This document shows positions 1 to 17,511 of a DNA stretch of 64,000 nucleotides, one piece after another. The translations under genes and the position numbers were made by a program. The stretch comes from Sphingomonadaceae bacterium (GTDB lineage Bacteria > Pseudomonadota > Alphaproteobacteria > Sphingomonadales > Sphingomonadaceae): positions 1 to 64,000 of the forward strand of contig CANGJB010000002.1 of NCBI GenBank assembly GCA_947453945.1, read 5' to 3'. Every line of letters begins with the position of its first letter. Position 1 is the first letter of the stretch. The notes under the pieces were generated by a model. The model did not search any database, was not told the DNA's origin, and saw only the letters and a list, made by a program, of their open reading frames with translations.

Positions 1-3000
1 AGGCCGAGTAGTCCGCCGTATCGAAGCCCGCGCCGCCTTCGAGCGTATCCGCCCCAGCACCGCCATCGAGCGTGTCGTTGCCCGCGCCGCCCAGCAGCGT
101 ATCGGCCCCGTCGCGCCCGGCGAGCACGTCATCGCCCGCGCCGCCCTCAAGGGTCTCGTCAGCGGCTGCGCCAGACAGGGTATCCGCGCCGGAAGAGCCG
201 ACCAGGCGCTCGATCGAGACGAGTGTGTCGCCCGCCGCATCGCCGCCCGTGCCGGTGCCAGTCGCCAGATCGACCGTGACGCCGAGCGCCGAGGCGCTGT
301 AATCGGCCGTATCCACGCCCGCGCCCCCATCAAGCAGATCGGCGCCGCCGCGCCCGGCCAGCACATCATTGCCGCCGCCGCCGCGCAAAGTCTCGTCCGC
401 GCCCGCGCCGACCAGAACGTCGTCGAAGCCGCTGCCGGTGACTTCCTCGATCCCGGCCAGCGTATCGCCCGTGGCGAGGCCGCCGAAGCCGGTGGAGCCA
501 TCGAGATAGACGCTGACGCCCGAGCCCGAGAGGCTGTAGTCGGCCCGGTCATAGCCCGCGCCGCCGTCGATCGTGTCTGCCCCGGCGCCGCCGTCGATCA
601 CATCATCGCCCACGCCGCCGAGCAGCGTATCATCGCCCGCTGCGCCGAGCAGGATATCGTTGCCCGCCCCGCCGCTGAGGCGGTCTGCCCCGGCGCTGCC
701 GGTGAGATGGTCGTCAAAGGCCGAGCCAAGCACGCTTTCGATGCCCGAAAGCGTGTCGCCCGCGGCATCGCCGCCCGCGCCGGTACCCGCGCCGAGATCG
801 ACGGTGACGCCAGCCGTGGAAGCGGAATAGTCGGCGGTATCGAAACCGAGCCCGCCATCGAGCACATCTGCGCCCGTGCCGCCGTTCAGAATGTCGTCGC
901 CCGCATCGCCGATGAGCGTATCATCGCCGCCGCCGCCCGAAAGCCGATCATCGCCCGCGCCGCCTTCCAGCGTTTCCGCCGCGCCCACGCCGGTGATCGT
1001 ATCGTTGAAGGCGGAGCCGAGAATGTGTTCGAAGTTTGTGACCGCATCGCCTTCAGCATCGCCGCCACGGCCCGCCGAGCCATCGAGCACCAGCGTGATC
1101 CCGGTGCGGCTGCTGGCATAGCTTGCGGTATCAGTGCCGGCGCCGCCATCGAGATTGTCAGCCCCGCCGCGCCCCTCGATCACATCATCGCCCGCACCGC
1201 CGAGCAGCGTGTCGCTGCCCGCAGACCCGCTGAGCGTATCGCCAAAGTCCGTGCCGATCACGCCTTCGATCCCGGCCAGCGTATCGCCATCGGCATCGCC
1301 GCCGCTGGCGCTGCCACTGGCGAGATCGACGCGCACGGCGCCGCCGCTGGCGCTGTAATCAACCACGTCGGAGCCTGCGCCGCCATCGAGCACATCGGCC
1401 CCGGCGCTGCCCAGCAGCGTATCGTTGCCGCCCTGGCCGAGCAGGGTATCGGCATCGGCCGAGCCGCGCAGGATATCGGCAAAGGCCGATCCGGAAATGC
1501 CTTCGATGCCGGTATACTGATCGCCCGTCGCATCGCCGCCGGTGTTGGCGAGACCATCAAGACCGGCGTTCACCCCGGTTTCCGAACGGCCATAATCGAC
1601 GATATCAAGGCCAAGCCCGCCGATCAGCTGGTCCGCACCGGCACCGCCATCGAGCCGATCGTTGCCCGCGCCGCCATCGAGCGTATCAACCCCGGCGCCG
1701 CCGGTGAGGCGGTCGTCGAAGTTCGAGCCCAGAATGCGTTCGATGCCGGTGAGCGTATCGCCCTGCGCATCGCCGCCGAGGCCCACCGAGCCATCGGTGC
1801 CCACGACCACGCCAGTGGCGCTGAGACTGTAGTCCGCCGTATCGAACCCGGTGCCGCCGATCAGCCGGTCGGCGCCGCCTCGGCCCGAGAGCGTATCGTC
1901 GCCCGCGCCGCCATCAAGCGTATTGGCGCTGTCGTTGCCCGAAAGCTGATCGGCAAAGGCCGAGCCGGTGAGCGCTTCGATCCCATCGATCTGGTCACCC
2001 TCGGCATCGCCGCTGCTGCCTGCCGAACCATCGAGCGCGACCGTGATCGCAGCCCCTGATGCGGAGTAGTCCGCCGTATCGAAGCCGTCGCCGCCCTGCA
2101 GCAGGTCCGCGCCGCCGCCGCCCGCGAGCACGTCGTCACCGCCGCCGCCCATGAGCCGGTTCGCCCCGGCGTCGCCGGTCAGGCGGTCGGCATAGTCGGA
2201 GCCTGTGAGGTTCTCGATCCCGTCAAACGTATCACCCGCAGCACTGCCGCCCGTACCGATGCCAGCGGCAAGGTCGATCGTGACCGCCGCTGCTGAATCG
2301 CCATAGTCCGCCGTATCCACCCCGACACCGCCGATCAGCGTATCCGCGCCGCGCCCGCCGCGCAGGATATCGTCGCCCGCGCCGCCTTCGAGCGTATTGG
2401 CGCCGCTATCGCCGATGAGGGTATCGGCATAGGCGCCGCCCACCACGCGCTCGATGCCCGAAAGCCGGTCGCCTTCGGCAATGTCGCCGGCCGAGGCATT
2501 GCCATCGAGCCGCACGGTGACAGCACCACCCGCAGCCGAATAATCGGCAGTATCGAAGCCTTCGCCGCCAGACAGCGTATCGGCGCCGAGATCGCCGGTG
2601 AGGATATCGTCCCCACCGCGGCCCGAAAGCACGTTATCGCCGGAATCGCCGCCGAGCCGGTCGGCAAATGCCGAGCCGGCCAGCGTCTCGATCCCGCGCA
2701 GCACATCGCCGGCCGCATCGCCGCCGGAGCCGGCCGAGCCGTCCAGCGCAACCGTGACGCCTTGCGCCGAAGTGGCATAGTCAGCGGTATCGGTGCCTGC
2801 GCCGCCGATCAGGGTATCAGCGCCAGCGCCGCCCGCGAGCACATCGTTGCCATCGCCGCCGACCAGCGTGTCGTCTCCGCCCGCGCCGATCAGGGTATCA
2901 TCACGCGCGCTGCCGATCACGCGCTCGATATTGCTCAGCCGGTCGCCATCGGCATCGCCGCCTTCGGAGAGCGTGCCATCCAGATGCACCGTCACGCCAA

Positions 3001-4260
3001 AGCGTGAGGCGCTGTAGTCTGCCGTATCGAACCCGTCGCCGCCGTCGATCGTATCCCCGCCGCCGAGCCCTGTGAGGGTATCGTCACCCGCGAGGCCGCG
3101 CAGCACATCGCTGCCGGCCGATCCGATCAGGGTGTCGCCAAAGCGCGAACCTTCGAGGCCTTCGATGCTGTCGAACACATCGCCCACCGCATCGCCGCCA
3201 TCGCGCAGCGAACCATCGAGCGCGACACGCACGGCCCCGCTGGAGCCGGCATAGCTGGCAATATCGAAACCTGCGCCGCCCGAAAGCGTGTCGGCCCCGG
3301 CGCCGCCTTCCAGCACATCATCGCCCGCGCCGCCGGACAGCGTTTCATCGCCGCGCCCGCCGACAAGGCGATCATCGAACGCGCTGCCGACAAGCACTTC
3401 GATATTGGCATAGGTATCGCCCTCGGCATCGCCGCCGCGCGATGCGCGCCCATCGAGATAGACTTCCACCGCCGTCTGGCTGGCGCTGAAATCGACCGTA
3501 TCGGTGCCGCCTGCGCCGTCGATGCGGTCTGCGCCTGCCCCGCCGATGATGCGGTTATCGCCGCCATCGCCGATCAGGGTATCATCGAAGGCCGTGCCGA
3601 TGAGGTTTTCGACGCGAATGGCGGTATCGCCTTCGGCATCTCCGCCCCGGCCGGCCACGCCATCAAGCCGCGCCTCGACCCCCGTGGCAGAGCCGCTGTA
3701 GTCCAGCGTATCGGTGCCCGCCCCGCCATCGAAGCGGTCTGCACCGGCGCTGCCGGTCATGCGGTCGTCAGCCGCGCCAGCTTCGATCCATTCGCCAGCC
3801 GCGCCGCCATGGATGATGTCGGCCCGGTCCGTGGCGATCACGTGTTCGATGCTGGTGAGCGTATCGCCTTCGGCCTCACCGCCGCGCGAAGCCGTGCCAT
3901 CGAGGAAAATCTCGACCCCGGCGGCGCCTGCAGGCGCGCCACCGAGCGCGTTTGTGTAGTCGGCGGTATCGGTGCCGGCCCCGCCATCAATCGCATCGGC
4001 GCCCTTGCCGCCGATGAAGGTGTTGTCGTTCGCGTCACCGGTCAGGCGGTCGGCAAAATCGGAGCCGATCAGGCCCTCGACGCCAGTGTAGGTGTCGCCC
4101 TGCGCCGCGCCGCCCTGGCCCTTGCCGGTGCCGAGGTTGGCGTCCACGCCTTCGCCCGAAAGGTGGTAGTCCACCACATCGGTGCCAGTGCCGCCATCGA
4201 TGGCGTCTGCGCCCGCGCCAGCGTGGATATGATCATCGCCCGCCCCGGCAGCAATCTTGG
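1..4260 (-). repeat. About 18 tandem RTX modules of roughly 240 bp
   Basis: The coding sequence repeats with a period of about 240 bp. A DNA box encoding the TADYS motif recurs near 15, 303, 540, 831, 1127, 1360, 1594, 1832, 2071, 2311, 2554, 2785, 3018, 3256, 3496, 3703, 3961 and 4170. Each module has the order TADYS, a VxLDG strand, GGDAEGDTL, GIE.(V/L).GS.F.D.L.G, then two or more GGxGxDxL nonapeptides. Copies differ at many third positions and some residues, so they are old or selected to diverge rather than freshly amplified. Confidence 0.9.
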
Positions 4261-5602
4261 TGCCGGGGGGATTGGAGAACAGCACGTAGATCGGATCGCC
4301 AGTGACGGGGTCCTTCACCGTCATCCCGGCCTCGTCGGTCACTTCCTTGATGCCGAACGCCGTGGAGACCGCCACCGCAAAGGTGGAGGTCTTGCCGTTG
4401 GACGAAAGGCCCAGCAGCACCGGGAGGAAGAATTCGTCCTTGAAGCCGTTGCTGGCCGCTTCAGCAGCGGTGGCAGGCAGCTTGTAGGTAAGCTCTAATT
4501 GAAAGGCGAAGTATGACTGGCTGGCCGGCACGGGCACAGTGTTGCCGTTCGCGTCGGTGGTCGTCGTCAGCTTCTCGATCTTGCCCTGATCGATCGAGAC
4601 CAGCCAGCCCTTGTCGGTCAGCGTGCCGTTGACAATGGCATAGCCCGCCGGAAGCGAGGGGATGAGGATCTGCAGCAGATCGAGCCCCGTGGCCGGAACT
4701 TCGGCCACGACATTGAGCACGCGCAGGCTGTTGCCCTGTGGCGCATGGGCAGGATCATCGGCATAGATCACGTCATTGCCGGATGTGCCCTCGATGCTTT
4801 CCTGCGCCGACTGGCCCTTGAACGTGGTGTCCATCGCAGAGCCGGGGCCGCCAGTATCGCCCTTGATCACGGTCTCGCCGTTTTCGGTGCTGCGCGTCAC
4901 GCCTTCGGAATTAGTGAGCGTGTAGGTCAGCTTGGGGACGAGCTTGCCGATACCCGCCGGGCCCAGCGCATCATCGGGCGCGGGCTCGGAGGCGCGGGCG
5001 GACTGGACCCCGGGCGATGCCGGGCTCTGCGGCTGGGCATTGCTGATCTTCTCGGTCAGCGCTTTGCCTGCTTCATCGAACTTGTGCTGCTTTTCCTGCT
5101 TGGCCGCCGCGGCCGCCTGGGCCTGGGCTGAATCGTCAGGCTGCACCGCGGCTGCGGTCTTCACTTCCTCGGCAGGTTTGCTGGAATCGGCGCTGCTGAG
5201 GTGGAGTTCAAGCTCGGGGCTCTGGGGCGAAATCTCGCCCACCATGCCAACTGCCTGATCGGCAGAGAATTCCTTGTCGGTAAACAGGATGACCGGCTTG
5301 CGGCCCGAGAACGCAGCAAGCGCCATGCCCGGAATGATGATCCGCGAGCCATCGGCGAACACGAGCACGACGTCGACGTCAGCAATCTCGACCTTGAACG
5401 GCGCGTACTTGATGCCAAGCCGCGCCTTGTCATCGGCATCGAGCATGACGACCTTGGCAGCGCCATAATCCTGCTTCTGGATCGTCGCCTTCGCACCCTC
5501 ACCATCGACCGGGGCCTGGGGTTCGGGCGTGACGTGAGGGGAGGCTTTGCCCCCCTTCGACTTGCCGGTAGAACCCGATTTGGCGCGAACGATCTTCACC
5601 AT
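1..5602 (-). CDS. Giant RTX calcium-binding protein, type I secretion substrate (C-terminus beyond window)
   Basis: Reading the minus strand from the ATG at 5602 gives an uninterrupted frame to the left edge, at least 1,867 residues. Residues 1-35 are basic and Gly/Ser-rich. Residues about 40-120 form a unique domain containing DVDVVLVFADGSR and FTDKEFSADQ. An Ala/Gln-rich linker and a unique beta-rich region follow to about residue 447. From there on the protein is RTX nonapeptides (GGAGDDVL, GGAGTDTADYS) in about 18 modules of roughly 80 residues. Such repeats bind Ca2+ and fold after export through a type I system. The C-terminal secretion signal is outside the window. A GAGG ribosome-binding site lies 4 nt upstream. 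The genes upstream encode a complete secretion machine, so this is its likely cargo. Adhesin or matrix protein is my inference; the N-terminal domain might act as a retention plug, as in LapA-type adhesins. Confidence 0.93.
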   Translation of the reverse strand, partial: MVKIVRAKSGSTGKSKGGKASPHVTPEPQAPVDGEGAKATIQKQDYGAAKVVMLDADDKARLGIKYAPFKVEIADVDVVLVFADGSRIIIPGMALAAFSGRKPVILFTDKEFSADQAVGMVGEISPQSPELELHLSSADSSKPAEEVKTAAAVQPDDSAQAQAAAAAKQEKQHKFDEAGKALTEKISNAQPQSPASPGVQSARASEPAPDDALGPAGIGKLVPKLTYTLTNSEGVTRSTENGETVIKGDTGGPGSAMDTTFKGQSAQESIEGTSGNDVIYADDPAHAPQGNSLRVLNVVAEVPATGLDLLQILIPSLPAGYAIVNGTLTDKGWLVSIDQGKIEKLTTTTDANGNTVPVPASQSYFAFQLELTYKLPATAAEAASNGFKDEFFLPVLLGLSSNGKTSTFAVAVSTAFGIKEVTDEAGMTVKDPVTGDPIYVLFSNPPGTKIAAGAGDDHIHAGAGADAIDGGTGTDVVDYHLSGEGVDANLGTGKGQGGAAQGDTYTGVEGLIGSDFADRLTGDANDNTFIGGKGADAIDGGAGTDTADYTNALGGAPAGAAGVEIFLDGTASRGGEAEGDTLTSIEHVIATDRADIIHGGAAGEWIEAGAADDRMTGSAGADRFDGGAGTDTLDYSGSATGVEARLDGVAGRGGDAEGDTAIRVENLIGTAFDDTLIGDGGDNRIIGGAGADRIDGAGGTDTVDFSASQTAVEVYLDGRASRGGDAEGDTYANIEVLVGSAFDDRLVGGRGDETLSGGAGDDVLEGGAGADTLSGGAGFDIASYAGSSGAVRVALDGSLRDGGDAVGDVFDSIEGLEGSRFGDTLIGSAGSDVLRGLAGDDTLTGLGGGDTIDGGDGFDTADYSASRFGVTVHLDGTLSEGGDADGDRLSNIERVIGSARDDTLIGAGGDDTLVGGDGNDVLAGGAGADTLIGGAGTDTADYATSAQGVTVALDGSAGSGGDAAGDVLRGIETLAGSAFADRLGGDSGDNVLSGRGGDDILTGDLGADTLSGGEGFDTADYSAAGGAVTVRLDGNASAGDIAEGDRLSGIERVVGGAYADTLIGDSGANTLEGGAGDDILRGGRGADTLIGGVGVDTADYGDSAAAVTIDLAAGIGTGGSAAGDTFDGIENLTGSDYADRLTGDAGANRLMGGGGDDVLAGGGGADLLQGGDGFDTADYSASGAAITVALDGSAGSSGDAEGDQIDGIEALTGSAFADQLSGNDSANTLDGGAGDDTLSGRGGADRLIGGTGFDTADYSLSATGVVVGTDGSVGLGGDAQGDTLTGIERILGSNFDDRLTGGAGVDTLDGGAGNDRLDGGAGADQLIGGLGLDIVDYGRSETGVNAGLDGLANTGGDATGDQYTGIEGISGSAFADILRGSADADTLLGQGGNDTLLGSAGADVLDGGAGSDVVDYSASGGAVRVDLASGSASGGDADGDTLAGIEGVIGTDFGDTLSGSAGSDTLLGGAGDDVIEGRGGADNLDGGAGTDTASYASSRTGITLVLDGSAGRGGDAEGDAVTNFEHILGSAFNDTITGVGAAETLEGGAGDDRLSGGGGDDTLIGDAGDDILNGGTGADVLDGGLGFDTADYSASTAGVTVDLGAGTGAGGDAAGDTLSGIESVLGSAFDDHLTGSAGADRLSGGAGNDILLGAAGDDTLLGGVGDDVIDGGAGADTIDGGAGYDRADYSLSGSGVSVYLDGSTGFGGLATGDTLAGIEEVTGSGFDDVLVGAGADETLRGGGGNDVLAGRGGADLLDGGAGVDTADYSASALGVTVDLATGTGTGGDAAGDTLVSIERLVGSSGADTLSGAAADETLEGGAGDDVLAGRDGADTLLGGAGNDTLDGGAGADTLEGGAGFDTADYSA

Positions 5603-5732: not shown

Positions 5733-7733
5733 TCAGTCGTCGCTGCCCGGCGCGGGCTGGACGAGCGCGGGGAGCGGCTGCCCGCCGCTGACCAGATCGA
5801 ACAAGCCGCCCAGTTTCTGCAGCACGCGATATTCCGCAGCGCGCAGCGCGATCTGGTTGGCGGTCTGCTTGGCGCGCGCGGCGAACAACAATTGCTCGGC
5901 ATCGAGCAGATCGAACACCGTGCGCCGCCCGCCGCGAAATTGCTGCTTGTAGAGATCGGCAACGCGCTCGGCCGAGCTAATTTCCGCCTCGATCGTGGCT
6001 ATCTTCTCACGTGCGGCGCCAAGGCTGGCATAATCGATGCGGATGTCCTGCTCCACTTCGCGGCGGCGGCGATCCAGCTCGTAATCGGCCTGGCGCAGGC
6101 GCGCGGCGATGCGGTTCTTGGTCGCAGTGGCGCCGCCGCCGTTGTAGAGCCGGTAGGAGAAGGTCACCATGGCACGCGCATCGACCGCACGCCCGGTCGC
6201 GCCCAGCACGTCCTGCCGGTAATCGCTGGCGATGGTGAGCCCGAGGCGCGGCAGCGCGGTGTCCGCCTGGCTATCGTATTGTTTGTCGAGCGAGCGGCGG
6301 TCTTCCACAGCCTGGGCAAGGCGCGGGCTGCGCGAATCCATAAGGTCGACCGCCGTATCGGCGCTTTCCGGCAGCGCGGTCCCGGCTGCGGGGACTTCGG
6401 CTGCGCGCAGCGGCATACGGTTGGTGAGGCGCTTGTAAGCATTGCGCGCCTGTTCGAGCCCGCTCTGCCGGTCCAGCAGCTGCGAGCGCACGTTATCGAG
6501 CCGGGTCTGCGCGCGTTCGACATCGGCGGGGGTGGTCAGCCCGAGGTCCTTCTGCACGGTGACGATGCGCAGGATCTTGCGCACCGAGGCGATCTCGCCC
6601 TCCGCCAGCGTCACCAGATTCTGCTGCAGCAGCACGCCGAGATAGGCATTGGCGATATCATAGGAAATCGCCTCGATCCGCTCACGCGTGCCCCATTGCG
6701 CCGAGCGGTAGCTGGCGCGGGCGCGCTTGATATCGTTGATGGTGACGCCGAAGTCCCACAAGTTCTGATTGAGCGAGACGGTCGCTTCGCTACGATAACG
6801 CTGGGTGGGCGCCTGCGGCACGGTGCGCGCGAATTCGCGGCCCCACGCGCCGCTCACGTCGATACGCGGCAGATAGTTGGCCCGCGCCTCGTTGACGGCG
6901 TAGCGGGCATCGTCCTGCTGGGCGAGCGAGATCTGGATTTCCGGGTTGCCCTTGAGCGAGGCGATGATGGCATCGGTGAGCGATTCGGTCTCGTCCGGCC
7001 GGGCCGCCGGAGCAGCGGGCGCAGGATCGGGCGCGTCGGCATCGGGGATGATCGCATCGGCTTGCGCGGGGATGGGCCCGGCGCTGGCCTGCGTACCAGA
7101 TGCGCCGGCTTCGGGACCGACCATCGCCGCCACCGGGCGCAGCGCCGGGAGCGGGCCGGGGCCATCGAGCTTTGAAAGCACCACCCGGCGCGCGGGGGCC
7201 GGCCCGCCGATCGCCGGCTGATCGGGATCGAGCGGGGGGAGTTCGGTTTCAGCCGGCGCGGGCTCGTCGACCATGCGCGCGGCAAGCGCCGAGCCATCGG
7301 GCATCGGCCCCTGCGTCATGGTCGGCGCGTGGACCGCGACCAGATCGGCGACCGGAACCAGCGGAAGCGCATCCACCGCAAACAGGGTGGTGAGCACCGG
7401 GGGGAGCAGCGGTTCGGCCATGGCCAGCCGCATCAGCACCGGCGTTTCGGCATAAGGCGCTGCCGGGGGCACGGGCGCGGTCGGGGGCGCTGGCGGAGCT
7501 GGCGCCGCAGCAGATGCGGACGCCAGGGACGACGGCTGGGGACCGAGGTCAACGCCGGGCGCGGTGGCGAATTCGGGCCCGTCGAGCCCGTCGAGTTGAT
7601 AGGCGATGAAAGGTGCGCTCGCCGCGCTGGGCACGGGCTCTGCAGCGCAGGCTGCCGGAACTGCCAGTGCGGCCCCGGCGACAAGGCCGGTGGCCAGCGC
7701 CGTTAGCGGCAGTCGGGCAAGTGAATGCGGCAC
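5733..7733 (-). CDS. TolC-family outer-membrane channel with long Ala/Pro-rich N-terminal extension
   Basis: This is the outer-membrane efflux protein expected to form the exit duct of the type I exporter. The OEP domain starts about residue 248 (ESLTDAIIASLKGNPEIQ) and runs to the end with typical helices (YLPRIDVSGAWG; RTVFDLLDAEQLLFAAR). About 200 residues rich in Ala and Pro lie between the signal peptide and that domain, which is unusual, since TolC homologues are mostly 430-500 residues. I prefer the GTG at 7733, preceded by AAGGAAG and followed by a good signal peptide (SLARLPLTALATGLVAGAAL), over the ATG at 7784. It is followed after 130 bp by the RTX gene and preceded after 127 bp by the PilZ gene, all on one strand. 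Confidence 0.9.
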   Translation of the reverse strand: MPHSLARLPLTALATGLVAGAALAVPAACAAEPVPSAASAPFIAYQLDGLDGPEFATAPGVDLGPQPSSLASASAAAPAPPAPPTAPVPPAAPYAETPVLMRLAMAEPLLPPVLTTLFAVDALPLVPVADLVAVHAPTMTQGPMPDGSALAARMVDEPAPAETELPPLDPDQPAIGGPAPARRVVLSKLDGPGPLPALRPVAAMVGPEAGASGTQASAGPIPAQADAIIPDADAPDPAPAAPAARPDETESLTDAIIASLKGNPEIQISLAQQDDARYAVNEARANYLPRIDVSGAWGREFARTVPQAPTQRYRSEATVSLNQNLWDFGVTINDIKRARASYRSAQWGTRERIEAISYDIANAYLGVLLQQNLVTLAEGEIASVRKILRIVTVQKDLGLTTPADVERAQTRLDNVRSQLLDRQSGLEQARNAYKRLTNRMPLRAAEVPAAGTALPESADTAVDLMDSRSPRLAQAVEDRRSLDKQYDSQADTALPRLGLTIASDYRQDVLGATGRAVDARAMVTFSYRLYNGGGATATKNRIAARLRQADYELDRRRREVEQDIRIDYASLGAAREKIATIEAEISSAERVADLYKQQFRGGRRTVFDLLDAEQLLFAARAKQTANQIALRAAEYRVLQKLGGLFDLVSGGQPLPALVQPAPGSDD

Positions 7734-7860
7734 CGGGTGCTTCCTTTGCGTAGCGTGATGCGTTCCGCGCAGATGTGCGGCCATCGTGGTTAAGCGCCGC
7801 GCAAGCAGGCCCTACGGGAAACCCCTTGGGGCCCCTTCGGACCGGGGATCTGGCCCAATC

Positions 7861-8217
7861 TCAGGCGGCGGCAGCAGGGGCGGCTGCGGGGGCGCTGTGG
7901 GCCAGAAGATGCGCCAGTTCGGCCTCGCTCAGCGGGGTTTCGAAGCGGACGCCAAAGCCGAGCGGGGTGGTCGCGACAATCTCCCCAAAAAGGGCGAGGC
8001 CCGCGGCCTGGACTTGCACGGGCACGTCGCGGCGGCTCATCAGATAGGCAAGGCGCGGGCGGAACATCGCTCCTCCGCGCGAGAAGTTGATGAGTCGGCC
8101 CTCGTAGCTCACCATCTTTTCGGTGAGGACGATTTCGCCATCGATCCGGCAATCGTGCCGCACATCGGCACGCGAGAACACCGGGCGGCGGCCAAATGGG
8201 TGGAAATGCAGGGCCAT
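7861..8217 (-). CDS. PilZ domain protein, putative c-di-GMP receptor of the secretion locus
   Basis: A 118-residue protein consisting of one PilZ domain. Both ligand-binding motifs are intact: RxxxR as RADVR near residue 17 and (D/N)xSxxG as NFSRGG near residue 44. The family binds cyclic di-GMP and changes the activity of partner proteins. The C-terminus ends in an Ala/Pro run. Its ATG at 8217 overlaps the stop of the upstream MotA-like gene (TGATG), so the two are translationally coupled; a GTG at 8220 is an alternative start. Control of the channel or of secretion by c-di-GMP is an inference from coupling and context. Confidence 0.88.
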   Translation of the reverse strand: MALHFHPFGRRPVFSRADVRHDCRIDGEIVLTEKMVSYEGRLINFSRGGAMFRPRLAYLMSRRDVPVQVQAAGLALFGEIVATTPLGFGVRFETPLSEAELAHLLAHSAPAAAPAAAA

Positions 8218-9962
8218 CACATCGCTCCGCGCTGGCTGGAGGGGATTTCGGCGGGACCGGCAGGCGTATCCGGCGCCAGATCTTCAAACCGCATGCCAAG
8301 CCGGCGGCGCAGGCGATCCATCTCGGTCCGCGCATCGCCCAGCCGGATCGTTGCGGCATCCGGCTCGCCCTCAAGCGCGGCGGCGAAAGTTTCAAACGAA
8401 GCGCGGTGCTCGGCGCTGCGCATATCGAGCCGCGCGAGCGCATCGCGGTGGTGCGCCGTGGCGACGGCCAGCCGCTCCAGCCGCCGATCGAGCCGCGCGG
8501 CCACTTCGCGCATGGCGCGGCGGTTGGCGGCAAGGCTGCCGTTGAGGTCGTGGCGCAGCCGCCGGGCTTCGGTAAGCTGGCGCCGCGCCGCGCGGGGCGG
8601 CGAAAACCCCATCCACGCCGCAAAGCGCGCGATGGTCCGGCCAAGCGCGGAGGTTGGCTGCGGCAGGGCCGGTTCGTGCCGTTCGGACACAAGGCGCGGC
8701 CTTTGCTGGGCTTCGCCGGCCAGCGTGATCAGGCTGTCGAGCTGGCGGTGGATCTCGTCCCCATCCAGCGCGGCGGACCGTTCCGCCAGCGCGCCAAGCG
8801 CGGCCAGCGTGGCGCGGATGTGCTCGCGATCAGCCGCAGCATCTTCGTGAAGCGCGCGCAGCTGCGCGAGCATGCCAGATTGGTTGTGCGCCAGTTCCGC
8901 CACCGCATCAGAGACGGGGCGCAGGAGATCGCGCGGATCGGCAAGACTGGTGACAACATCCGTCAGGCTGCCGACGGCGCCGGTAAGCCCGGCGATTTCG
9001 GCCTTGTTCGCCTCTGCCCCGCGGGCCAGGCCGATGATCGAACCGCGCAGTTCGGCAAGCTCTGCCGCACCGGCTTCGATCGCGCGGCGCACAGAGCCGA
9101 AATCGCGCGAAGGGCTGCCCGCCGCCTCGCCCTGGCCGGATTCGAGCTGGGCAAGGTTGGACAGCCAATGCTCGAACTCGTTGCGCAAGGTCTTCATCGC
9201 GCTGGTCATGCAGCGTTCGAGCGCGCCGAGAACCATCGAGGTCATCAGGCCGAACAGTGACGAGCTGAAGCCCACCGACATGCCGTTGAGCGGGGCCTTC
9301 ATGCCCTCGATCATCTTGCCGAAGCTGTCAGAGCCGGCGCTGCCCGAGACGTCCATCGCGCCGATCAGGTCGGACACCGAGTGCACGGTCTTCATCAGAC
9401 CCATGAACGCGCCGAGCAGGCCGAGGAACACCATCAGGCCGGAGAAATAGAGAATGGTCGACTTGCGGTCGTTGATGCGCTGATCGACATCGTGGAGCAG
9501 CGTCTGGACCGTGTCCGCGCCGATCTCCAGGTTGTCCTGCTTGCCCAGTTCCTCGGTAATCAGGCGATAGCCCTGGCCGAGCAGTTCGGGTTCGTGGAAC
9601 ACCACGGCCGGCCGCGCATAAGGATCGCGCGGGCGCTTGGCACGATCACCATAATCGACCTGCAACGCATGGAGCGCGACGACTTCGTTGCGCAAGGTGA
9701 GCACGTTGCGAAAGGATATCCCCGCCGCCACGCCGAAGATCGCGAAGATCGACAGGTTTAGCGCCATCTTGGCCTTGATGCCTTCGATGACGAATTCGTG
9801 GGCATAGATGCCAAGCCCGATCAGGACGACCATGATCACGGTCATCTTCAGGAGTTCGGAGCGGAGCTTCTTTTCCATGGCAGTCGATCCGGTAGCGTGC
9901 CCGGACATCGGCCGGGCGTTGGCGGGGCTTTTGCGCACAGCGCGCAGCAGGGCGGCGATCAT
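8217..9962 (-). CDS. MotA/TolQ/ExbB-like (SiiB-like) proton-channel subunit with long cytoplasmic tail
   Basis: A 581-residue membrane protein. Predicted membrane segments are near residues 39-58, 67-86, 168-193 and 226-247. The third and fourth (STILYFSGLMVFLGLLGAFM; MSVGFSSSLFGLMTSMVLGA) match the MotA/TolQ/ExbB core. Residues about 250-581 form a charged, Ala/Arg/Glu-rich, probably coiled-coil cytoplasmic tail. The start at 9962 overlaps the stop of the MotB-like gene (ATGA), and its stop overlaps the PilZ start, so three genes are coupled. An alternative ATG is at 9878. MotA-like proteins form ion channels with a MotB-like partner. In Salmonella SPI-4, SiiA/SiiB of this class energise a type I secretion system, and I infer the same role here. 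Confidence 0.85.
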   Translation of the reverse strand: MIAALLRAVRKSPANARPMSGHATGSTAMEKKLRSELLKMTVIMVVLIGLGIYAHEFVIEGIKAKMALNLSIFAIFGVAAGISFRNVLTLRNEVVALHALQVDYGDRAKRPRDPYARPAVVFHEPELLGQGYRLITEELGKQDNLEIGADTVQTLLHDVDQRINDRKSTILYFSGLMVFLGLLGAFMGLMKTVHSVSDLIGAMDVSGSAGSDSFGKMIEGMKAPLNGMSVGFSSSLFGLMTSMVLGALERCMTSAMKTLRNEFEHWLSNLAQLESGQGEAAGSPSRDFGSVRRAIEAGAAELAELRGSIIGLARGAEANKAEIAGLTGAVGSLTDVVTSLADPRDLLRPVSDAVAELAHNQSGMLAQLRALHEDAAADREHIRATLAALGALAERSAALDGDEIHRQLDSLITLAGEAQQRPRLVSERHEPALPQPTSALGRTIARFAAWMGFSPPRAARRQLTEARRLRHDLNGSLAANRRAMREVAARLDRRLERLAVATAHHRDALARLDMRSAEHRASFETFAAALEGEPDAATIRLGDARTEMDRLRRRLGMRFEDLAPDTPAGPAEIPSSQRGAM

Positions 9963-10693
9963 GGCTTGATCACCACGCGGACCATGTGTCCGTCGGCCGA
10001 GGCTGCATCGGTGACGCGGATCTGAGTGACGAGATCGGCCGGTGCGAGCCCGGCACGCAGCAGGAGGTTGCGGGTCATCGCAGCGCGGTAGAATGCGATG
10101 CGCTGTGCCTCGGAGACCGAGCGGGTCTGCGGCGCGAACGACCAGATTTCATACTTCGTGCCCGGGCGGGCCTTGCTCTTGATGAAGCTGATCACGCGCG
10201 CGGAATTGGCCTCATCATAGGTCGCGGCATTGGGCGCGAAGCCGATCTTGATCAGGGTGTCGGCGGTCTTGACCTCGACGCCCTTGGCATCGTCCGCCTG
10301 CTCCACGGCCTTGACCTGGAGCTTGAGCGTATCGGGCGTCTCGCGGGTGCGGATCGAGAGGCGTTCCGCGCCGTCGGTCACGGTGGGGGAACGCAGCACC
10401 GCGCCGAGTTCAGCCACCGAAGTACCGGCTTCGGCATCGTGCGGCGAGAGCACGGCAGCCGTGCCGGGCGCGCAGACGACAGGCGAAGCGGGCTTGCCAT
10501 CCTTCCCCTGCTTTTCGGTCTGTTGCTGCTGGATGAGCTGCTGCTTGAAATTGGCGATGACACGCTGCGAAAGCTGCATGACCGCCGCGCTCATGATCAC
10601 GAGCAGAAAGGTCACCACCATGATCACGGTGGTGAGCACGTCCACGAAGGCCGGCCAGTGATTGACTTCGCCGTCGGCGGATGCCCCTGCCAC
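9959..10693 (-). CDS. MotB/ExbD/OmpA-like (SiiA-like) proton-channel partner
   Basis: A 244-residue protein with a short cytoplasmic N-terminus, one membrane segment (FVDVLTTVIMVVTFLLVIM, residues 16-34) and a periplasmic domain. Asp18 sits at the start of the membrane helix, where MotB, ExbD and SiiA carry their proton-accepting Asp. The C-terminal 100 residues resemble an OmpA/MotB peptidoglycan-binding fold (SEAQRIAFYRAAMTRNLLL, then a segment ending VRVVIKP), though the binding motif is degenerate. Its stop overlaps the next gene's start (ATGA). It lies 91 bp downstream of the exporter gene. I take the pair to be a stator-like proton channel for the secretion apparatus. Confidence 0.82.
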   Translation of the reverse strand: MAGASADGEVNHWPAFVDVLTTVIMVVTFLLVIMSAAVMQLSQRVIANFKQQLIQQQQTEKQGKDGKPASPVVCAPGTAAVLSPHDAEAGTSVAELGAVLRSPTVTDGAERLSIRTRETPDTLKLQVKAVEQADDAKGVEVKTADTLIKIGFAPNAATYDEANSARVISFIKSKARPGTKYEIWSFAPQTRSVSEAQRIAFYRAAMTRNLLLRAGLAPADLVTQIRVTDAASADGHMVRVVIKP

Positions 10694-10784
10694 GTCGTAC
10701 TCCCTTCAGGCGGCGGGCGAGAATGCGCTCCGTCATCCTTAATCGGCCATAAGCCATGGTGTTTAAAGGCTGGCGCGCCTGCGC

Positions 10785-13037
10785 TCAGGCAGCTTCCCTA
10801 GGTCCGTGTTTACCATTTGCCGTGCCGGCCTGAGTGGCGAGCTGGGCCAGTACTTCGGCCTTGGGCCGGTCTGCCACGATGCGTCCCTCTTCGAGCCAGA
10901 TCACACGGTCGACGATCTCCAGCACGGCCAGCCGATGCGTGGCGACAATCAGAGTCTTGCCGCGCGTCGCCTCGGCCAGGCCGGCGATCACCGCCTGTTC
11001 GCTGCCGACATCGAGCGCGGCAGTGGGTTCATCGAGGAGGAGGACTGCGGGATCGCGCACCAACGCGCGCGCCAGCAGGAGCGACTGGCGCTGCCCGCCT
11101 GAAAGTGCCGAGCCGCGCGGGCCGACCTCGCGCATGTAGCCTTCCGCGGTGCGCGCGACGAAGCTGTCCAGCCCCGAGCAGCGGATCGCGCGTTCGACCA
11201 CGGCAACTTCCGGTTCGGACATGCCGAGCAGGATATTGTGCCAAACCGTGCCTTCGAAGATCATCGCGTCCTGCGCGCTGTAGATCACGTTCTGGCGCAA
11301 GTGCGGCATGGCGAAGCGATCAAGCGCGTGGCCATCGAGCGTGATCAGGCCGTCCTGCGCAGGCACGAGCCCGGCGATGAGCTGGAGCAGGGTCGACTTG
11401 CCCGAACCCGATTTGCCGATCAGCGCCACCCGCTCGCCCGCGCGCACGCTGAAGCTGAGGCCCGCAAGGCTGGGTGCGCCGCTTCCGGCAAACGTATGGC
11501 CAAGGCCCGCGACCTGCACCGCGCCGCGCACTGGGGCGTGGCTGATGGCCGGATCGGAGACATCGCGTTCGGGTTCGGACTGAAGCAGCCCGGCTAGCGC
11601 CTGAAACTGCGCAAGGCTCTGATAAGCGCGGGCGAACATGCTGACCGTGGCGGCAACAGGAACCATTGCGCGGCCGGTCAGCAGCACCACGGCGATCAGC
11701 GCGCCGGTGGTCATCACCCCAGCCTTGATCTGCAGCACCCCGATCACGACGACGATCACGGTGACCAACTGGACGAGCAGGCCCGAGGCCGAGGCCGGCA
11801 GTTCGGACCAGTGCCGCACGTGCTTGTGGCCCATCGCGAGATGATCGGAGACAAGATCCCACCGCCCCTCGAACAGGCCTTCGGCGTTGTTGGCCTTGAT
11901 CGTGGTCCAGCCGCTGGTGAGTTCTGCCGTCAAATCACTGCGCGCCTGGGTGAGTTTTGAGGCGCGGCGGCTGGCCAGTTTCAGCGCATAGTTGCAGACC
12001 ATGCCGACAAGGATGAGGCCCAGTGCGCCGAGGATCGGCCCGATCACGGTGAACCCGCCGATCAGGGCAATCACTGCGAACAGTAGCACCACGAACGGCA
12101 GATCGACACAGAACGTGGCGATGGCCTGCGGCACGAGGAGCGATAGCCCTTCGAGATCGCGCAAGGCGGTCAGCATCGCGCCAAAGCCCATGCCCGGCGT
12201 TGGCGCGCGGGCGCGCAACACGGCAACCACCGCGCGGTGCTGCACTGCCTGCCCCACCCGCGTCGCCACGGCTTCGACAAAGCGCGCCTTGATCTTCTTG
12301 AGCAGCAGTTCGAACGCCAGCACGATGGTGACACCGATCGACAGCGCCCACAGGCTCTCGATCGCGAGGTTGGGCACGACCCGATCGTAGATGGCGCGCA
12401 TATAGAGCGGGATCGCCAGCGCGCAGAGATTGAGCAGCGCGCTGGCCAGCAGCATCTGGCCGAGCGGGCCGCGCTCCGCCAGATAGGCGCCAAGCAGCCA
12501 GGCCTTGGGGTTGCGGCGGATGAGATCGCGTTCGTGCGCATCGCTCGCCCCGTTGACCGGATCGACCGGGCCGCTGTGCAGCGCCTCGCCCGCCAGCAGC
12601 GGACGCAGCGCGGCGAACGGCAGTGCCTGTTCGCCCGCCGCATCGCGCACCGTGACCTCTCCGACTGCGGGGCCGGCAGTAAGGAGCACCGCGCCGCCCG
12701 CCGCGAGCGGCGCGATCAGCGGAAAGTCCGCCGCCTCGGGAAGGCGCTGGCCGAGCGGCCGCCAGTGCGCCTCCAGCCCGATCCGCGCGAGGGCGAGCGG
12801 GGCAAGCTTCGTCGCCAGCGCATCCTGCGTCATCGGCAGGGCTGCCCCCAGCACGGCCGGATCGTGCGCGATCCCGCGCAAGGCGGCCAGCGCCTGGATG
12901 GCAGCCAGCATCGGCAGAGGCGTGATGACCGGGCGATCTGCTGTGGCGGCTGGTGAGGCTGGCGGCCGCCTCCGGAACAAGCGGCGCAAGCGACCGGAGT
13001 GCTGGGCATCGGGCTGGGCGGAAGGCGTTTGTTGCAT
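10785..13037 (-). CDS. Type I secretion ABC exporter (LapB/LssB-like) with inactive C39-like domain
   Basis: A 750-residue inner-membrane exporter. Residues about 40-165 form a C39-peptidase-like domain with no cysteine, so it should recognise but not cleave its substrate. Residues about 180-470 hold the membrane domain (LLASALLNLCALAIPLYMRA; FCVDLPFVVLLFAVIALIGG). The ATPase follows with Walker A GKSGSGKST, signature SGGQRQS, Walker B LLLDEPTAALD and H-loop ATHR. Non-cleaving members of this family export RTX adhesins that lack a GG leader. First gene of the minus-strand run that ends in the RTX substrate; divergent from the HlyD-like adaptor. The leading stretch of about 35 residues is Gln/Arg/Pro-rich. 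Confidence 0.93.
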   Translation of the reverse strand: MQQTPSAQPDAQHSGRLRRLFRRRPPASPAATADRPVITPLPMLAAIQALAALRGIAHDPAVLGAALPMTQDALATKLAPLALARIGLEAHWRPLGQRLPEAADFPLIAPLAAGGAVLLTAGPAVGEVTVRDAAGEQALPFAALRPLLAGEALHSGPVDPVNGASDAHERDLIRRNPKAWLLGAYLAERGPLGQMLLASALLNLCALAIPLYMRAIYDRVVPNLAIESLWALSIGVTIVLAFELLLKKIKARFVEAVATRVGQAVQHRAVVAVLRARAPTPGMGFGAMLTALRDLEGLSLLVPQAIATFCVDLPFVVLLFAVIALIGGFTVIGPILGALGLILVGMVCNYALKLASRRASKLTQARSDLTAELTSGWTTIKANNAEGLFEGRWDLVSDHLAMGHKHVRHWSELPASASGLLVQLVTVIVVVIGVLQIKAGVMTTGALIAVVLLTGRAMVPVAATVSMFARAYQSLAQFQALAGLLQSEPERDVSDPAISHAPVRGAVQVAGLGHTFAGSGAPSLAGLSFSVRAGERVALIGKSGSGKSTLLQLIAGLVPAQDGLITLDGHALDRFAMPHLRQNVIYSAQDAMIFEGTVWHNILLGMSEPEVAVVERAIRCSGLDSFVARTAEGYMREVGPRGSALSGGQRQSLLLARALVRDPAVLLLDEPTAALDVGSEQAVIAGLAEATRGKTLIVATHRLAVLEIVDRVIWLEEGRIVADRPKAEVLAQLATQAGTANGKHGPREAA

Positions 13038-13144
13038 GGCGTTTAACCCCGTTTCGAGGCGGGATTGCCAGTTTATGGAAAACGCCGGGTGAAGCGCAGC
13101 TTAGGGGAATGCACGTAAGGTAACGGCAAGCCGAAACAAGGATA
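13038..13144. promoter_or_regulatory. Divergent intergenic region between exporter and adaptor genes
   Basis: The 107-bp gap separates the minus-strand ABC exporter gene from the plus-strand HlyD-like gene, so both promoters must lie here or overlap the gene starts. I see no clear -35/-10 pair and no convincing operator palindrome. An ACAAGG motif just upstream of 13145 could serve as the ribosome-binding site of the adaptor gene. Co-regulation of the two arms from this region is an inference. Confidence 0.4.
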
Positions 13145-14599
13145 ATGAACGGTAAAGACCCGGCACACGCTCACGCTATCCGGGGTTTTGCCATGCGCTA
13201 TTCGCGCCTTCGCCAATCACTGATCGTCTCGCTCGGCGGGGCCAGCCTATTCGACGACTTGCGCCCCGGCGAGGCGGACGCCGTGCTTGGCGGCAAGCTG
13301 GCGCTGGCCAGCCAGCCCATCGGCGCGGCCCTGCCATGGAGCGCGCGGATCGGGATCGGTGCGCCTTCGCGCCTGCTCAAGGCTCTGGCGATCACGTTTG
13401 GCCTTATCGTGCTGTGGATGGCGTTGTTCACCGTTGACAAGGTGACGCGCGGCGCAGGCCGCGTGCTGCCTTCCACGCAGAACCAGCTGGTGCAGCACCT
13501 CGAAGGCGGGATCGTGAAGGAAATCCTCGTCCAGGAAGGTCAGCGTGTGCGCAAGGGACAAGTCTTGATGCGAATCAGCAATGCTTCGACCGGCGCGGCC
13601 ATTGAAAGCGCGCGCACCGATCTGGTGGCCAAGCGTATCATGCTGGCGCGGCTAGAGGCGGAAATCAGCGGCGCCGGCAGCTTCGTGCCGCCCGCCGATC
13701 TGGCCGCACAGGCTCCTGAAATCGCCGCAAGCGAGGCGGGCCTTTTCGCCTCACGCCGCGCACAGCGGATGAGCCAGGTGGGCGTGATCAACCAGCAGGC
13801 GCGCGCCAAATCGGCCGAAGTCGGCTCGCTCCAGGCGCGGCTGGGCAATCTGCGCAGCGAGGAACGGCTGGCCATGGAGCAGCTTTCACGGCTCGAACGC
13901 GCTTATGCCGAAGATGCCGTTTCCGAACGCGATGTGCTCGACAAGCGCGCCGCGCTGCTTTCGCTGCGCACACGCATTGCCGATGTGGCGAACCAGATCC
14001 CGCAATCCTCCGCAGGCCTTGGCGAATCCGCCGCCCGGCGCGGTGAGATCTGGGCGAGCGACATGGAGCAGATCCGCGCGCAGGCCGCGCAGCTCCGGCT
14101 CGAACTCGCCAAGGCGGACGAACAGTTCGGCGCCGTGGAAGACCGCGTCGCGCGCGAGGAAATCCGTGCGCCGGTCGATGGCGTCATCAACCGGCTGAAT
14201 GTGCGCACCGCCGGCGGCGTGATCCGGGGCGGCGAGCCTGTGGCCGAAATCGTGCCCGCCGCCAGCCAGGTCATCATCGAGGCGCGCATCGCCCCCAAGG
14301 ATCGCAGCAACATCTGGCCGGGCCTGCCCGCCCGGATCAAGATCTCCGCCTACGATTCCACCGTCTACGGATCGTTGGAGGCCAAAGTGGTCGATGTCTC
14401 GCCCGATGCGATCCAGGATCCGCGCGGCGGGCTCTATTACCGGGTGCGGCTGGATGCCGGGCGGGCCAGCTTCGGGGCGGGCATGCCGGTCATTCCGGGC
14501 ATGACGGGTGAAGTGGCGATCCGTTCGGGCCGCCAGACGATCCTCAACTACGTGCTCGGCCCGCTGATCCGCATCTCGCAGGAAGCGCTGCGTGAGTAA
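13145..14599 (+). CDS. HlyD-family type I secretion periplasmic adaptor
   Basis: A 484-residue membrane-fusion protein linking the ABC exporter to the TolC-like channel. One N-terminal membrane anchor lies near residues 82-100 (ALAITFGLIVLWMALFTVDK). It is followed by the biotinyl-lipoyl motif (VQHLEGGIVKEILVQEGQRV), a long helical hairpin (residues about 150-330) and the C-terminal barrel ending in the family signature near GMPVIPGMTGEVAIRSGR. The length is normal for HlyD/LapC proteins. It is transcribed away from the exporter gene but completes the tripartite machine. ATG at 13145 is used; ATG at 13193 is a possible alternative. Confidence 0.93.
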   Translation: MNGKDPAHAHAIRGFAMRYSRLRQSLIVSLGGASLFDDLRPGEADAVLGGKLALASQPIGAALPWSARIGIGAPSRLLKALAITFGLIVLWMALFTVDKVTRGAGRVLPSTQNQLVQHLEGGIVKEILVQEGQRVRKGQVLMRISNASTGAAIESARTDLVAKRIMLARLEAEISGAGSFVPPADLAAQAPEIAASEAGLFASRRAQRMSQVGVINQQARAKSAEVGSLQARLGNLRSEERLAMEQLSRLERAYAEDAVSERDVLDKRAALLSLRTRIADVANQIPQSSAGLGESAARRGEIWASDMEQIRAQAAQLRLELAKADEQFGAVEDRVAREEIRAPVDGVINRLNVRTAGGVIRGGEPVAEIVPAASQVIIEARIAPKDRSNIWPGLPARIKISAYDSTVYGSLEAKVVDVSPDAIQDPRGGLYYRVRLDAGRASFGAGMPVIPGMTGEVAIRSGRQTILNYVLGPLIRISQEALRE

Positions 14600-14818
14600 C
14601 GTCTTGTCACTGAAATCCTAGCGAAAAGGCTTGTGGCAGGCCCGCACTCATCATAGCAAAAATGTCACACAAGCCGCGATTTCGCACTTGCGGCATGCGC
14701 ATTGCCCCCCAAATCTGTTTACTCTTCCGGTCGAAAGAATATCCACAGCGCGCTTTCAACCGAAGGCAGAATGCCGGGCCCTCGCGCCCGTCTGCTACAT
14801 TTCAGGGGGTACCCTCAC

Positions 14819-17473
14819 GTGCGAAACCTTTCCAATCTTGCCCTGCGCGGCGCGCTGCTGGCTTCGGCCGCCGCCTTTGCCGGCGTAGCGGCTCCTCAGG
14901 CTGCCTTTGCGCAGGAAACCGCTGCCGCCACCGACGATGCCGCCGCTGCGCAGAGCATCGTGGTCATCGGCACCCGCCGTACTGACCGCACCGTCGCTGA
15001 CTCGGCCTCGCCGATCGACGTGATCAGCGCCGCCGACCTCAGCTCGCAGCCGACCGCGAACCTGCTGGACTCGGTCCGCAACCTCGTGCCGTCGTTCTTC
15101 GTCGGTCAGAACTCGATTTCGGACGCCTCGACCTTCGTTCGCGCGCCTTCGCTGCGCGGCCTTCCGGGCGATCAGCTGCTCGTCATGCTCAACGGCAAGC
15201 GCTACAACCGCTCGGCGCTGGTGCAGGTCTACAACGGTGGTGACACCGGCCTGTCGTTCGGCTCGCAGGGTCCCGACATTTCGGCGATCCCCGCGATCGC
15301 GATCAAGGGTCTCGAAGTGCTGCGCGACGGCGCGACCGCACAGTACGGTTCGGACGCCATCGCGGGCGTGCTGAACTACGGCCTGCGCGACAACGCTGGC
15401 TTCGAACTGATGGGTCGCTATGGCCAGTTCTACAAGGGCGACGGCAAGAGCTATCAGGTGGCTGCAAACGCCGGCCTGAAGTCTGACCGCGGCTTCATCA
15501 ACGTTTCCGGCGAATACAACAACGACGGCCGCACCAGCCGCGGCGTGACGCGCCCGATCGCTGCGCGCTTCGCTGCCGAGAACCCCTCGCTGGCCGACAA
15601 GATTCCGTTCTCGCCGCTGCCCGCCCAGATCTGGGGCAACTCGCCCAGCGAAGGTTGGAAGGCTGTCGTCAACGCCGCCTACGACGTGACCGACAACAGC
15701 AAGGTCTATGCTTTCGGAAACTTCGCGCACAGCCGCGCCGAGCAGAGCTTCAACTTCCGTTCCTCGTACCAGGGCTCGAGCTCGTTCGAGTATGACGATG
15801 GAAGCGGCACGCTGAAGACCGGCACGATCGGTGGCCGCAACTTCTTCCAGGTGCCCTATTACAAGACCGAGTGCCCGGCCGGAAACGTAACCTGCCCCGC
15901 TGGCGGTTACGTCAAGGACGGCAACACCTTCAACCTGACCTCGATCTATCCGGGCGGCTTCACGCCGATCTTCGTGGGCAAGACCGATCAGGCCTATGGC
16001 ACGATGGGTTACAAGGGGAAGACCGACAGCGGCTTCACCTATGACCTTTCCGCCTCGCTGAGCCGCAACACGCTCGACCTGTCGATGTTCAACTCGATCA
16101 GCCCCTCGTTCGGTGCGGCCTCGCAGACCAGCTTCGAGTTCGGCAAGCTGATCCAGAAGGAATTCGATGCCAACCTCGACCTGACTTATGCAGTCGAGGC
16201 AGGCCTCGCCAGCCCGATCACCTTCTCGGGCGGCGCCGAGTTCCGCCGCGAGAGCTACACCGCCACCGAAGGTGACTTCCAGTCCTACGGTGCGGGCCCC
16301 TACGCCATCGCGCACGACCTCTACACCCAGACCGGGCCGGGCGTGTATGCCCCGACCGGCGAAACGACCGCAGTCTATGATCCGGCGGCAAGCGGCTACG
16401 GCGGCACGTCGCCGAAGTATGCCGGCACCAACAAGCAGAAGAGCTACGGCTTCTACGTGGGTGCTGAAACCGACGTGACCAAGGAGCTCACGCTCGGTGC
16501 GGCCGGTCGCTACGAGCACTACGATTCGTTCGGTGGCCGCTTCGTCTACAAGTTCAACGGCATCTACCACGTGACCGACGAAGTCGCGCTGCGTGCAACC
16601 GTGGGTTCGGGCTTCCACGCTCCGACCCCGGGCCAGAACAATACCGCTGTGCTGACCACCAACTTCCTCGCCGGTCAGTCGGTGCAGGTCGGCACCTTCC
16701 CGGTGACGAGCGACGTGGCGAAGTACTTTGGCTCGAAGGCGCTGAAGCCTGAGAAGTCGACCAACTTTGGTTTCGGTTTCGTGTTCCAGCCGACCAGCGC
16801 GCTGACGCTGACGGTGGACGCCTACCAGATCAAGGTGACGGACCGTATCTTCATCTCGAAGTCGTTCGTGGTGGGCGCGGCTGACATCGCCAAGCTGTCC
16901 GAGCTTGCCTCGGTGGGCGTGGGCGGCAACGTTCAGTACTTCACCAACTCGCTCGACATTCGCACGCGCGGTGTCGACGTGGTTGGCAGCTACCGGACCG
17001 ATCTTGCCGGCGGCAAGCTCAACCTGACGCTCGCCTACAACTACAACAAGAACAAGGTGACGAATTTCGACCCGGCCGCCATCGGCGCGGCGCAGATCAC
17101 CGACGCTGAAAACCTTGCGCCGAAGCACCGCCTCAACCTCCAGGGCAACTGGTCGATGGGTGCGTTCTCGGTTGGCGCTGCTGGCCGCTACTTCGGCAAG
17201 TGGCAGGCCGAGACCGACTATCCGGGCCAGGTGTTCGGCGCGAAGGTCACGGCTGATGTGGACGTGAGCTACACCTTCATGGACAACTTCAAGCTGACCG
17301 TGGGTGGCAACAACATCTTCAACACCAAGCCAGACCGGGTCAAGGCTTCGTCCTCGAACCCGATCTACACGCTGACCAACAGCACCGGCGACGGCCAGAT
17401 CTATCCGCGTAACGGCGGTCCGTTCGGCTTCAACGGCGGCTTCTGGTACGTCCGCGCCAGCGTGAAGTACTAA
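14819..17473 (+). CDS. TonB-dependent outer-membrane receptor
   Basis: An 884-residue receptor. I choose the GTG at 14819, because CAGGGGG precedes it at normal spacing and it gives a clean signal peptide (RNLSNLALRGALLASAAAF, cleavage after AFA). Upstream in-frame ATGs would add a non-signal leader. A plug domain follows (IVVIGTRRTDRTVADSASPI; LEVLRDGATAQYGSDAIAG) and then a 22-strand-type barrel ending in aromatic WYVRASVKY, the usual barrel terminus. Such receptors import siderophores, cobalamin, sugars or other ligands with TonB energy. The neighbours give no ligand hint. The 219 bp between the HlyD stop and this start holds no gene I can support. Confidence 0.95.
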   Translation: MRNLSNLALRGALLASAAAFAGVAAPQAAFAQETAAATDDAAAAQSIVVIGTRRTDRTVADSASPIDVISAADLSSQPTANLLDSVRNLVPSFFVGQNSISDASTFVRAPSLRGLPGDQLLVMLNGKRYNRSALVQVYNGGDTGLSFGSQGPDISAIPAIAIKGLEVLRDGATAQYGSDAIAGVLNYGLRDNAGFELMGRYGQFYKGDGKSYQVAANAGLKSDRGFINVSGEYNNDGRTSRGVTRPIAARFAAENPSLADKIPFSPLPAQIWGNSPSEGWKAVVNAAYDVTDNSKVYAFGNFAHSRAEQSFNFRSSYQGSSSFEYDDGSGTLKTGTIGGRNFFQVPYYKTECPAGNVTCPAGGYVKDGNTFNLTSIYPGGFTPIFVGKTDQAYGTMGYKGKTDSGFTYDLSASLSRNTLDLSMFNSISPSFGAASQTSFEFGKLIQKEFDANLDLTYAVEAGLASPITFSGGAEFRRESYTATEGDFQSYGAGPYAIAHDLYTQTGPGVYAPTGETTAVYDPAASGYGGTSPKYAGTNKQKSYGFYVGAETDVTKELTLGAAGRYEHYDSFGGRFVYKFNGIYHVTDEVALRATVGSGFHAPTPGQNNTAVLTTNFLAGQSVQVGTFPVTSDVAKYFGSKALKPEKSTNFGFGFVFQPTSALTLTVDAYQIKVTDRIFISKSFVVGAADIAKLSELASVGVGGNVQYFTNSLDIRTRGVDVVGSYRTDLAGGKLNLTLAYNYNKNKVTNFDPAAIGAAQITDAENLAPKHRLNLQGNWSMGAFSVGAAGRYFGKWQAETDYPGQVFGAKVTADVDVSYTFMDNFKLTVGGNNIFNTKPDRVKASSSNPIYTLTNSTGDGQIYPRNGGPFGFNGGFWYVRASVKY

Positions 17474-17511
17474 GTTCGGCTCTGGTCCAACCAGACCAGC
17501 CTAAGAGAATG

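Follow-up and report, generated by a model that had tools for sequence, protein, structure and literature searches.

Why would a type I secretion system (T1SS) be encoded together with a stator of the MotA/MotB kind and a PilZ protein, and what might this combination do for the giant RTX protein that the exporter serves? The question is raised by a locus of a Sphingomonadaceae bacterium (assembly GCA_947453945.1, contig CANGJB010000002.1), of which bases 1-64000 of the contig were analysed (the window). The original prediction described a complete ABC/HlyD/TolC exporter interleaved with a MotA/MotB-like pair, and every gene that it named was found where it had been placed. The interval assigned to the locus, 5733-14599, holds the TolC, PilZ, MotA-like, MotB-like, ABC and HlyD genes; the RTX cargo gene, which had been counted within it, adjoins it outside, at 2-5602, and is incomplete since the window begins at the first base of the contig. 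We propose, with a probability of about 0.5, that the T1SS, the RTX protein, a stator likely to control its retention or release and a PilZ protein likely to set stator activity work as one system. The observations behind this proposal are gene content and order, the size of the cargo, the pore Asp of the MotB-like subunit and its OmpA-like model, the PilZ motifs, the co-occurrence of stator and cargo head, and the near-absence of LapG.

Using the MotA-like protein as query, we obtained 19 named genome loci from Novosphingobium, Sphingobium and related metagenome bins; N. sediminis, N. aerophilum, N. piscinae and Sphingobium fluviale are among the carriers. Genes for HlyD, ABC, MotB, MotA and PilZ were present in the same order in each of them and in the window (20/20), so that the predicted synteny with T1SS and RTX genes holds in sphingomonad relatives; recurring in order in 19/19 named loci, the gene association is not due to chance. 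TolC was found in 20/20 loci and the RTX cargo in 19/20; the contig of L033 stops within TolC and thus before the cargo. An earlier count that had TolC missing from two loci (L036, L038) and incomplete in L032 was rejected: the L036 gene is displaced to a position beside the RTX gene (as read in G009, which looks like the same assembly), and the gaps in L038 and L032 were failures of BLASTP alignment, since phmmer aligns clear TolC homologs. The RTX neighbour first counted in L036 was likewise a different RTX protein, the true cargo head lying further along the contig. Here (locus L101, G009/L036) about 14 kb, including an insertion sequence-related-looking ATPase and another RTX protein, separates PilZ from TolC-RTX, and both halves of the system keep open frames despite this separation. 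Two further genomes gave two more stator-PilZ cases, L151 and L153 (L152, from the same genome as L045, was left out of the counts); TolC was not found by phmmer within the L151 stretch. G026, from another family of the order, has HlyD, ABC, MotB, MotA and RTX genes on a contig that ends inside the MotA gene, before any PilZ position. At E <= 1e-40 the profile of the MotA-like protein picked out five genomes in a sample of 396 from the order, a sporadic distribution. Together, these results support a dedicated, conserved T1SS-stator-PilZ unit.

The cargo was described in the original prediction as a giant surface protein, and its size was borne out in six relatives in which the RTX gene could be read from the first Met to the stop codon (6,626, 6,642, 6,648, 7,993, 8,242 and 8,699 residues). 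These six proteins have masses of 626-830 kDa and a pI of 4.05, and are free of cysteine. A seventh, from G009, shows an open frame of 6,654 residues, a length that falls short because the fetched stretch starts just inside the gene. All seven finish in a ...FYSD... tail, and a repeat-unit marker occurs 48-72 times per protein with a median spacing of 79-97 residues; a Pfam scan of one ortholog (6,644 residues) found RTX repeats alone. For the head, comprising the first ~330 residues, nothing in Pfam or NCBIfam scored above noise. It occurs once per genome in 22 of 23 genome handles, among which two pairs, G009/G050 and G020/G048, each look like the same assembly. In the sample of 396 genomes, it was detected (E <= 1e-8) in exactly the same five as the MotA-like protein. 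With the query genome set aside, the chance of this co-occurrence is ~1e-9 by simple counting, and its true significance is weaker because the genomes share ancestry. The head is a likely candidate for the part of the cargo that meets the exporter or the stator. In G044 the giant RTX gene is immediately followed by a gene for another RTX protein, the head of which is DUF4347 (L100:262-3507).

At E <= 0.001, no Pfam family matched either the MotA-like or the MotB-like protein. Asp18 of the MotB-like subunit is invariant in 76/76 aligned orthologs, and the longest invariant run of the protein lies in the transmembrane (TM) helix around this residue. Its periplasmic part was modelled with an OmpA-like fold, with SiiA among many similar structural matches. 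We predict that the pair is a proton-driven, peptidoglycan-anchored stator. Genes matching PF01618 (MotA_ExbB) numbered 2-6 in each of 20 genomes, none of them at the T1SS locus, and the profile of the MotA-like protein did not match E. coli MotA, TolQ or ExbB. Remote homology to ZorA of the Zorya system was detected over TM3-TM4 (PADLOC ZorA1, 27 bits; hhalign probability 92%), and ZorA, like the MotA-like protein, has a long helical tail. However, the protein lies in a T1SS context and scores far under the cut-off of the ZorA model (15.5 against 100 bits), and the Zorya model NF033914 found no match in the window's own genome (85.9% complete). Thus, as regards the families that might have claimed it, the pair stands apart from the flagellar MotA, TolQ/ExbB and, beyond the TM3-TM4 similarity, ZorA proteins compared.

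Among the families compared, the closest relatives of the MotA-like protein belong to an alphaproteobacterial family of ~390 residues with a PRK09039-type partner. Twenty fetched relatives, the best of the list, all match at 145-192 bits (hhalign E 4e-44), and searching with the profile of this family gave a hit in 220 of 385 genomes sampled from the class. These pairs differ from the one studied here in several respects: HlyD, TolC, PilZ and RTX-cargo matches were found beside none of the 20 fetched loci (blastp 1e-8; TolC also by phmmer), the order is MotA-MotB in 15/15 with a detectable MotB rather than MotB-MotA, and the long tail is missing in 18/20. In 13 of these 20 loci (L154-L173) the stretch fetched contains an ABC-transporter gene, which directly adjoins the pair in several, and one open reading frame with three RTX-like motifs was seen in L162.

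The PilZ protein matched PF07238 at 35.5 bits (cut-off 22.5), and those of L034 and L151 are also above the Pfam cut-off. Numbered from the GTG at 8220, R17 and R21 are conserved without exception in 22/22 orthologs, with identities down to 32%, and so is the [DN]xSxGG box. The second Arg and [DN] lie 24 apart in the PilZ of the locus, 27 apart in YcgR, and 22-24 apart in the five of seven PilZ stretches of the window's own genome that carry both motifs. Comparison with YcgR and with these stretches, and the start of the Pfam match, indicate that R17xxxR21 is the canonical register; the alternative R21xxxR25 was rejected, its second Arg being present in 11/20 loci only (11/22 with L151 and L153). 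The PilZ gene lies directly 3' of the MotA-like gene in 22/22 readable loci and overlaps it in 17/22; in the window, its start overlaps the MotA-like stop (...ATGTGATGG...). A PilZ protein with intact c-di-GMP (cyclic di-GMP) motifs, coupled to the MotA-like gene, is thus what the alignments bear out, and we predict from its motifs that it binds c-di-GMP. The window's own genome gave 18 GGDEF matches, so the signal is likely to be available. In two of the seven relatives in which the sequence beyond the RTX gene was read, a DUF3391 and HD-GYP-type protein is encoded within ~1.5 kb downstream of that gene (L105:7680-8954 and L113:6106-7455). Its GYP part is kept, whereas LDLG / LDFG in place of the HD pair suggests degeneration.

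How far does the locus resemble systems already described? Salmonella pathogenicity island 4 (SPI-4, SiiA-SiiF) also combines a tripartite T1SS and one giant surface protein with a Mot/Exb/Tol-type pair, in which the counterpart of SiiA has one TM helix, an Asp and an OmpA-like, peptidoglycan-type domain. No LapG-type cleavage is reported for SiiE in the accessible part of PMC6272769, where the N-terminus of SiiE is implicated in retention; the sphingomonad cargo head is specific to its system in the 396-genome sample. In contrast, the cargo here consists of RTX repeats and SiiE is a non-RTX BIg protein (PMC12607715, as excerpted), and the sphingomonad locus has a PilZ gene, a divergent HlyD gene and a ~300-residue helical tail on the MotA-like protein. 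The gene order of SPI-4 (siiA-F) was taken from the descriptions in the papers, and SiiA is the Sii stator protein compared by sequence. The label 'SPI-4-like' therefore stands as an analogy of parts: exporter, giant cargo and a stator with a peptidoglycan-type domain agree, while the repeats of the cargo differ, the PilZ gene is extra and sequence searches gave no match to SiiA. By anatomy, the locus may be equated with SPI-4 SiiAB in its logic. PilZ proteins are also paired with MotA-type stators in YcgR, MotI, FlgZ and MotL on flagellar MotAB, and motL, a PilZ-only gene, directly follows motAB (available portion of PMC8203827). There, however, the stator is flagellar, whereas the present one lies in a T1SS locus and its profile is without a match to flagellar MotA of E. 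coli. The exporter of the Lap system is LssB-type, like the ABC protein here, and the ABC, HlyD, TolC and cargo genes are those of an LssB-type RTX T1SS; the ABC protein itself is under the strict LssB cut-off. The LapA-LapD-LapG system shares with the locus a very large RTX protein and, as proposed here, control of retention by c-di-GMP, but LapG is missing from 19/20 genomes and the receptor would be a PilZ protein on a stator, not a LapD that sequesters a protease.

With an exporter, a giant cargo, a predicted motor and a predicted c-di-GMP sensor clustered, cells are likely to hold or release the cargo on an internal signal. PilZ proteins act on MotA stators (PMC10140304; PMC8203827, in its accessible part), and SiiAB is reported in excerpts of PMC6272769 and PMC12607715 to control retention of SiiE, which is raised by the proton motive force and in which no cleavage was seen. 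We suggest that the N-terminal head, exported last, stays in the HlyD/TolC conduit, where the stator, braced on peptidoglycan, would push, pull or lock it by proton flow, as proposed for SiiAB. PilZ loaded with c-di-GMP would dock on the MotA-like subunit from the cytoplasmic side, probably at its added tail, much as YcgR and MotI dock on the MotA of flagella, and would thereby switch the stator. The simplest sign, which is a guess, would be retention at high c-di-GMP (sessile cells) and release at low. A c-di-GMP-gated rotary stator, in which PilZ would brake or clutch a proton-driven MotAB motor and the 600-800 kDa RTX protein would be held, wound in or released by its head, is a tentative picture to which we give somewhat less than even odds. 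Such a route would need no cargo-cutting protease, unlike the best-known system.

Several points weigh against the proposal. The structure predicted for the MotA-like protein is of mediocre quality (mean pLDDT 68), SiiA (6qvp) gave no match to the pair in PDB by phmmer or profile search, the cargo head was not found in G047, the locus contig of which ends inside TolC, and some of the genomes are incomplete, including that of the window. The stator might instead drive export: the 626-830 kDa chain would be pulled or ratcheted along the conduit by proton flow, with PilZ turning secretion on or off, so that a phenotype would appear in the amount secreted and not in retention. An exceptionally long cargo, almost wholly RTX repeats, and stator genes placed between those for ABC and TolC would agree with this. 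To our knowledge, however, other giant RTX adhesins are exported without a stator pair. Moreover, loss of siiA and siiB in Salmonella leaves SiiE secretion to the supernatant unaffected (excerpt of PMC12607715), and we regard a stator that drives export as unlikely.

Somewhat less probable again is a PilZ protein that is co-transcribed and acts elsewhere, on the ABC protein, on expression or as a c-di-GMP-independent adaptor, with a stator that works independently of it. The sole tie between PilZ and the MotA-like protein is gene coupling, which in 5/22 cases is without strict overlap; no MotA-PilZ fusion of fitting length was seen among the matches listed (120 of 237 MotA homologs); and binding of MotL to its own MotAB could not be demonstrated (PMC8203827, available portion). 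Against this stand the constant position of PilZ behind the MotA-like gene and the invariance of its c-di-GMP motifs. A third alternative, in which the pair anchors the exporter statically to peptidoglycan and has lost proton conduction, appears less probable still. A TM3 Thr that 20/20 alphaproteobacterial relatives retain is replaced by Ala in 14 of the 16 T1SS-linked MotA proteins compared (Ala185 of the MotA-like protein, window 9408-9410), and proton flow could therefore be weakened; the OmpA-like peptidoglycan-type domain would also suit an anchor. However, an invariant run that is longest at the Asp18 helix would be unexpected for a mere tether, and the two most distant T1SS-linked homologs, L151 and G026, keep the Thr. 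Control by proteolysis of the cargo head, c-di-GMP acting through LapD/LapG-type proteins, is largely refuted and very improbable, as PF06035 was unmatched in those 19 genomes with a positive control, the window's own genome (85.9% complete) being without a match and a LapG family protein occurring in one of 20 genomes (that of L037; L046, G051), and [TP]AA[GV] lies in the first 300 residues of one of seven cargo proteins, the G009 sequence being without its first ~80 residues.

Coordinates of the locus are collected in Table 1. The MotB-like and MotA-like frames overlap by 4 nt solely when the first MotA ATG is taken, the conserved start being further in (window 9878). The TolC protein carries a Pro/Ala-rich N-terminal extension of ~260 residues (window 7004-7784) ahead of the TolC fold, which differs in length and sequence among relatives and could reach peptidoglycan or MotB. 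A tRNA-Val called by ARAGORN at window 3713-3804, inside the RTX reading frame, is most likely false. HlyD is followed by genes for a TonB-dependent receptor and a gamma-glutamyltranspeptidase (window 14702-19315). They also flank the locus in seven of the closest relatives (L027-L032 and L034) and gave no match in L035-L045; being present in close relatives only, they are probably outside the system.

Table 1. Features of the T1SS-stator-PilZ locus (columns: feature, window position, strand, description)
RTX cargo	2-5602	(-)	5' part of gene, 1,867 residues, truncated by contig start; 30 RTX stretches (Pfam)
Cargo N-terminal head	4622-5602	(-)	without Pfam or NCBIfam family
TolC-family outer-membrane channel	5733-7784	(-)	TIGR01844 above cut-off, residues 266-661
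PilZ protein	7861-8217/8220	(-)	PF07238 above cut-off; RxxxR and NFSRGG
MotA-like subunit	8217-9962	(-)	4 TM helices and ~300-residue helical cytoplasmic tail; conserved start Met29 (9878)
MotB-like subunit	9959-10693	(-)	one TM helix with Asp18, disordered linker, OmpA-like periplasmic domain 146-243
LssB-type T1SS ABC transporter	10785-13037	(-)	TIGR03375 best match, 563.9 bits, residues 42-736, under 693.1 cut-off
HlyD-family T1SS adaptor	13145-14599	(+), divergent	TIGR01843, 339 bits, above cut-off

Each part of this locus has a precedent, and the combination was not found in print. A published PilZ-linked stator (MotAB-PilZ) in a T1SS locus was not found in the literature searched, which excluded bioRxiv preprints and most subscription journals; within that scope, the view that the system had not been described before held up. 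A 2025 paper on stator evolution names SiiAB alone for type I secretion in its accessible part (PMC12204202), and the text of a paper on an E. coli RTX/T1SS island contains no stator words (PMC12758282). If our reading is true, the locus would represent a third route for the control of a giant adhesin, beside LapD/LapG proteolysis and SiiAB of SPI-4, and the first joining of a c-di-GMP receptor to a secretion motor. How SiiAB converts proton flow to retention or release of the adhesin is described as unclear (PMC12607715, as excerpted), and a counterpart for RTX proteins in environmental bacteria, equipped with its own c-di-GMP switch and a cargo head specific to the system, would make this question directly testable outside a pathogen. 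It would extend the principle of PilZ acting on a stator from flagella to secretion, would link c-di-GMP to surface attachment by a route that involves no protease, and provides one branch of a stator family that is widespread in the sampled genomes of the class with its first candidate role.

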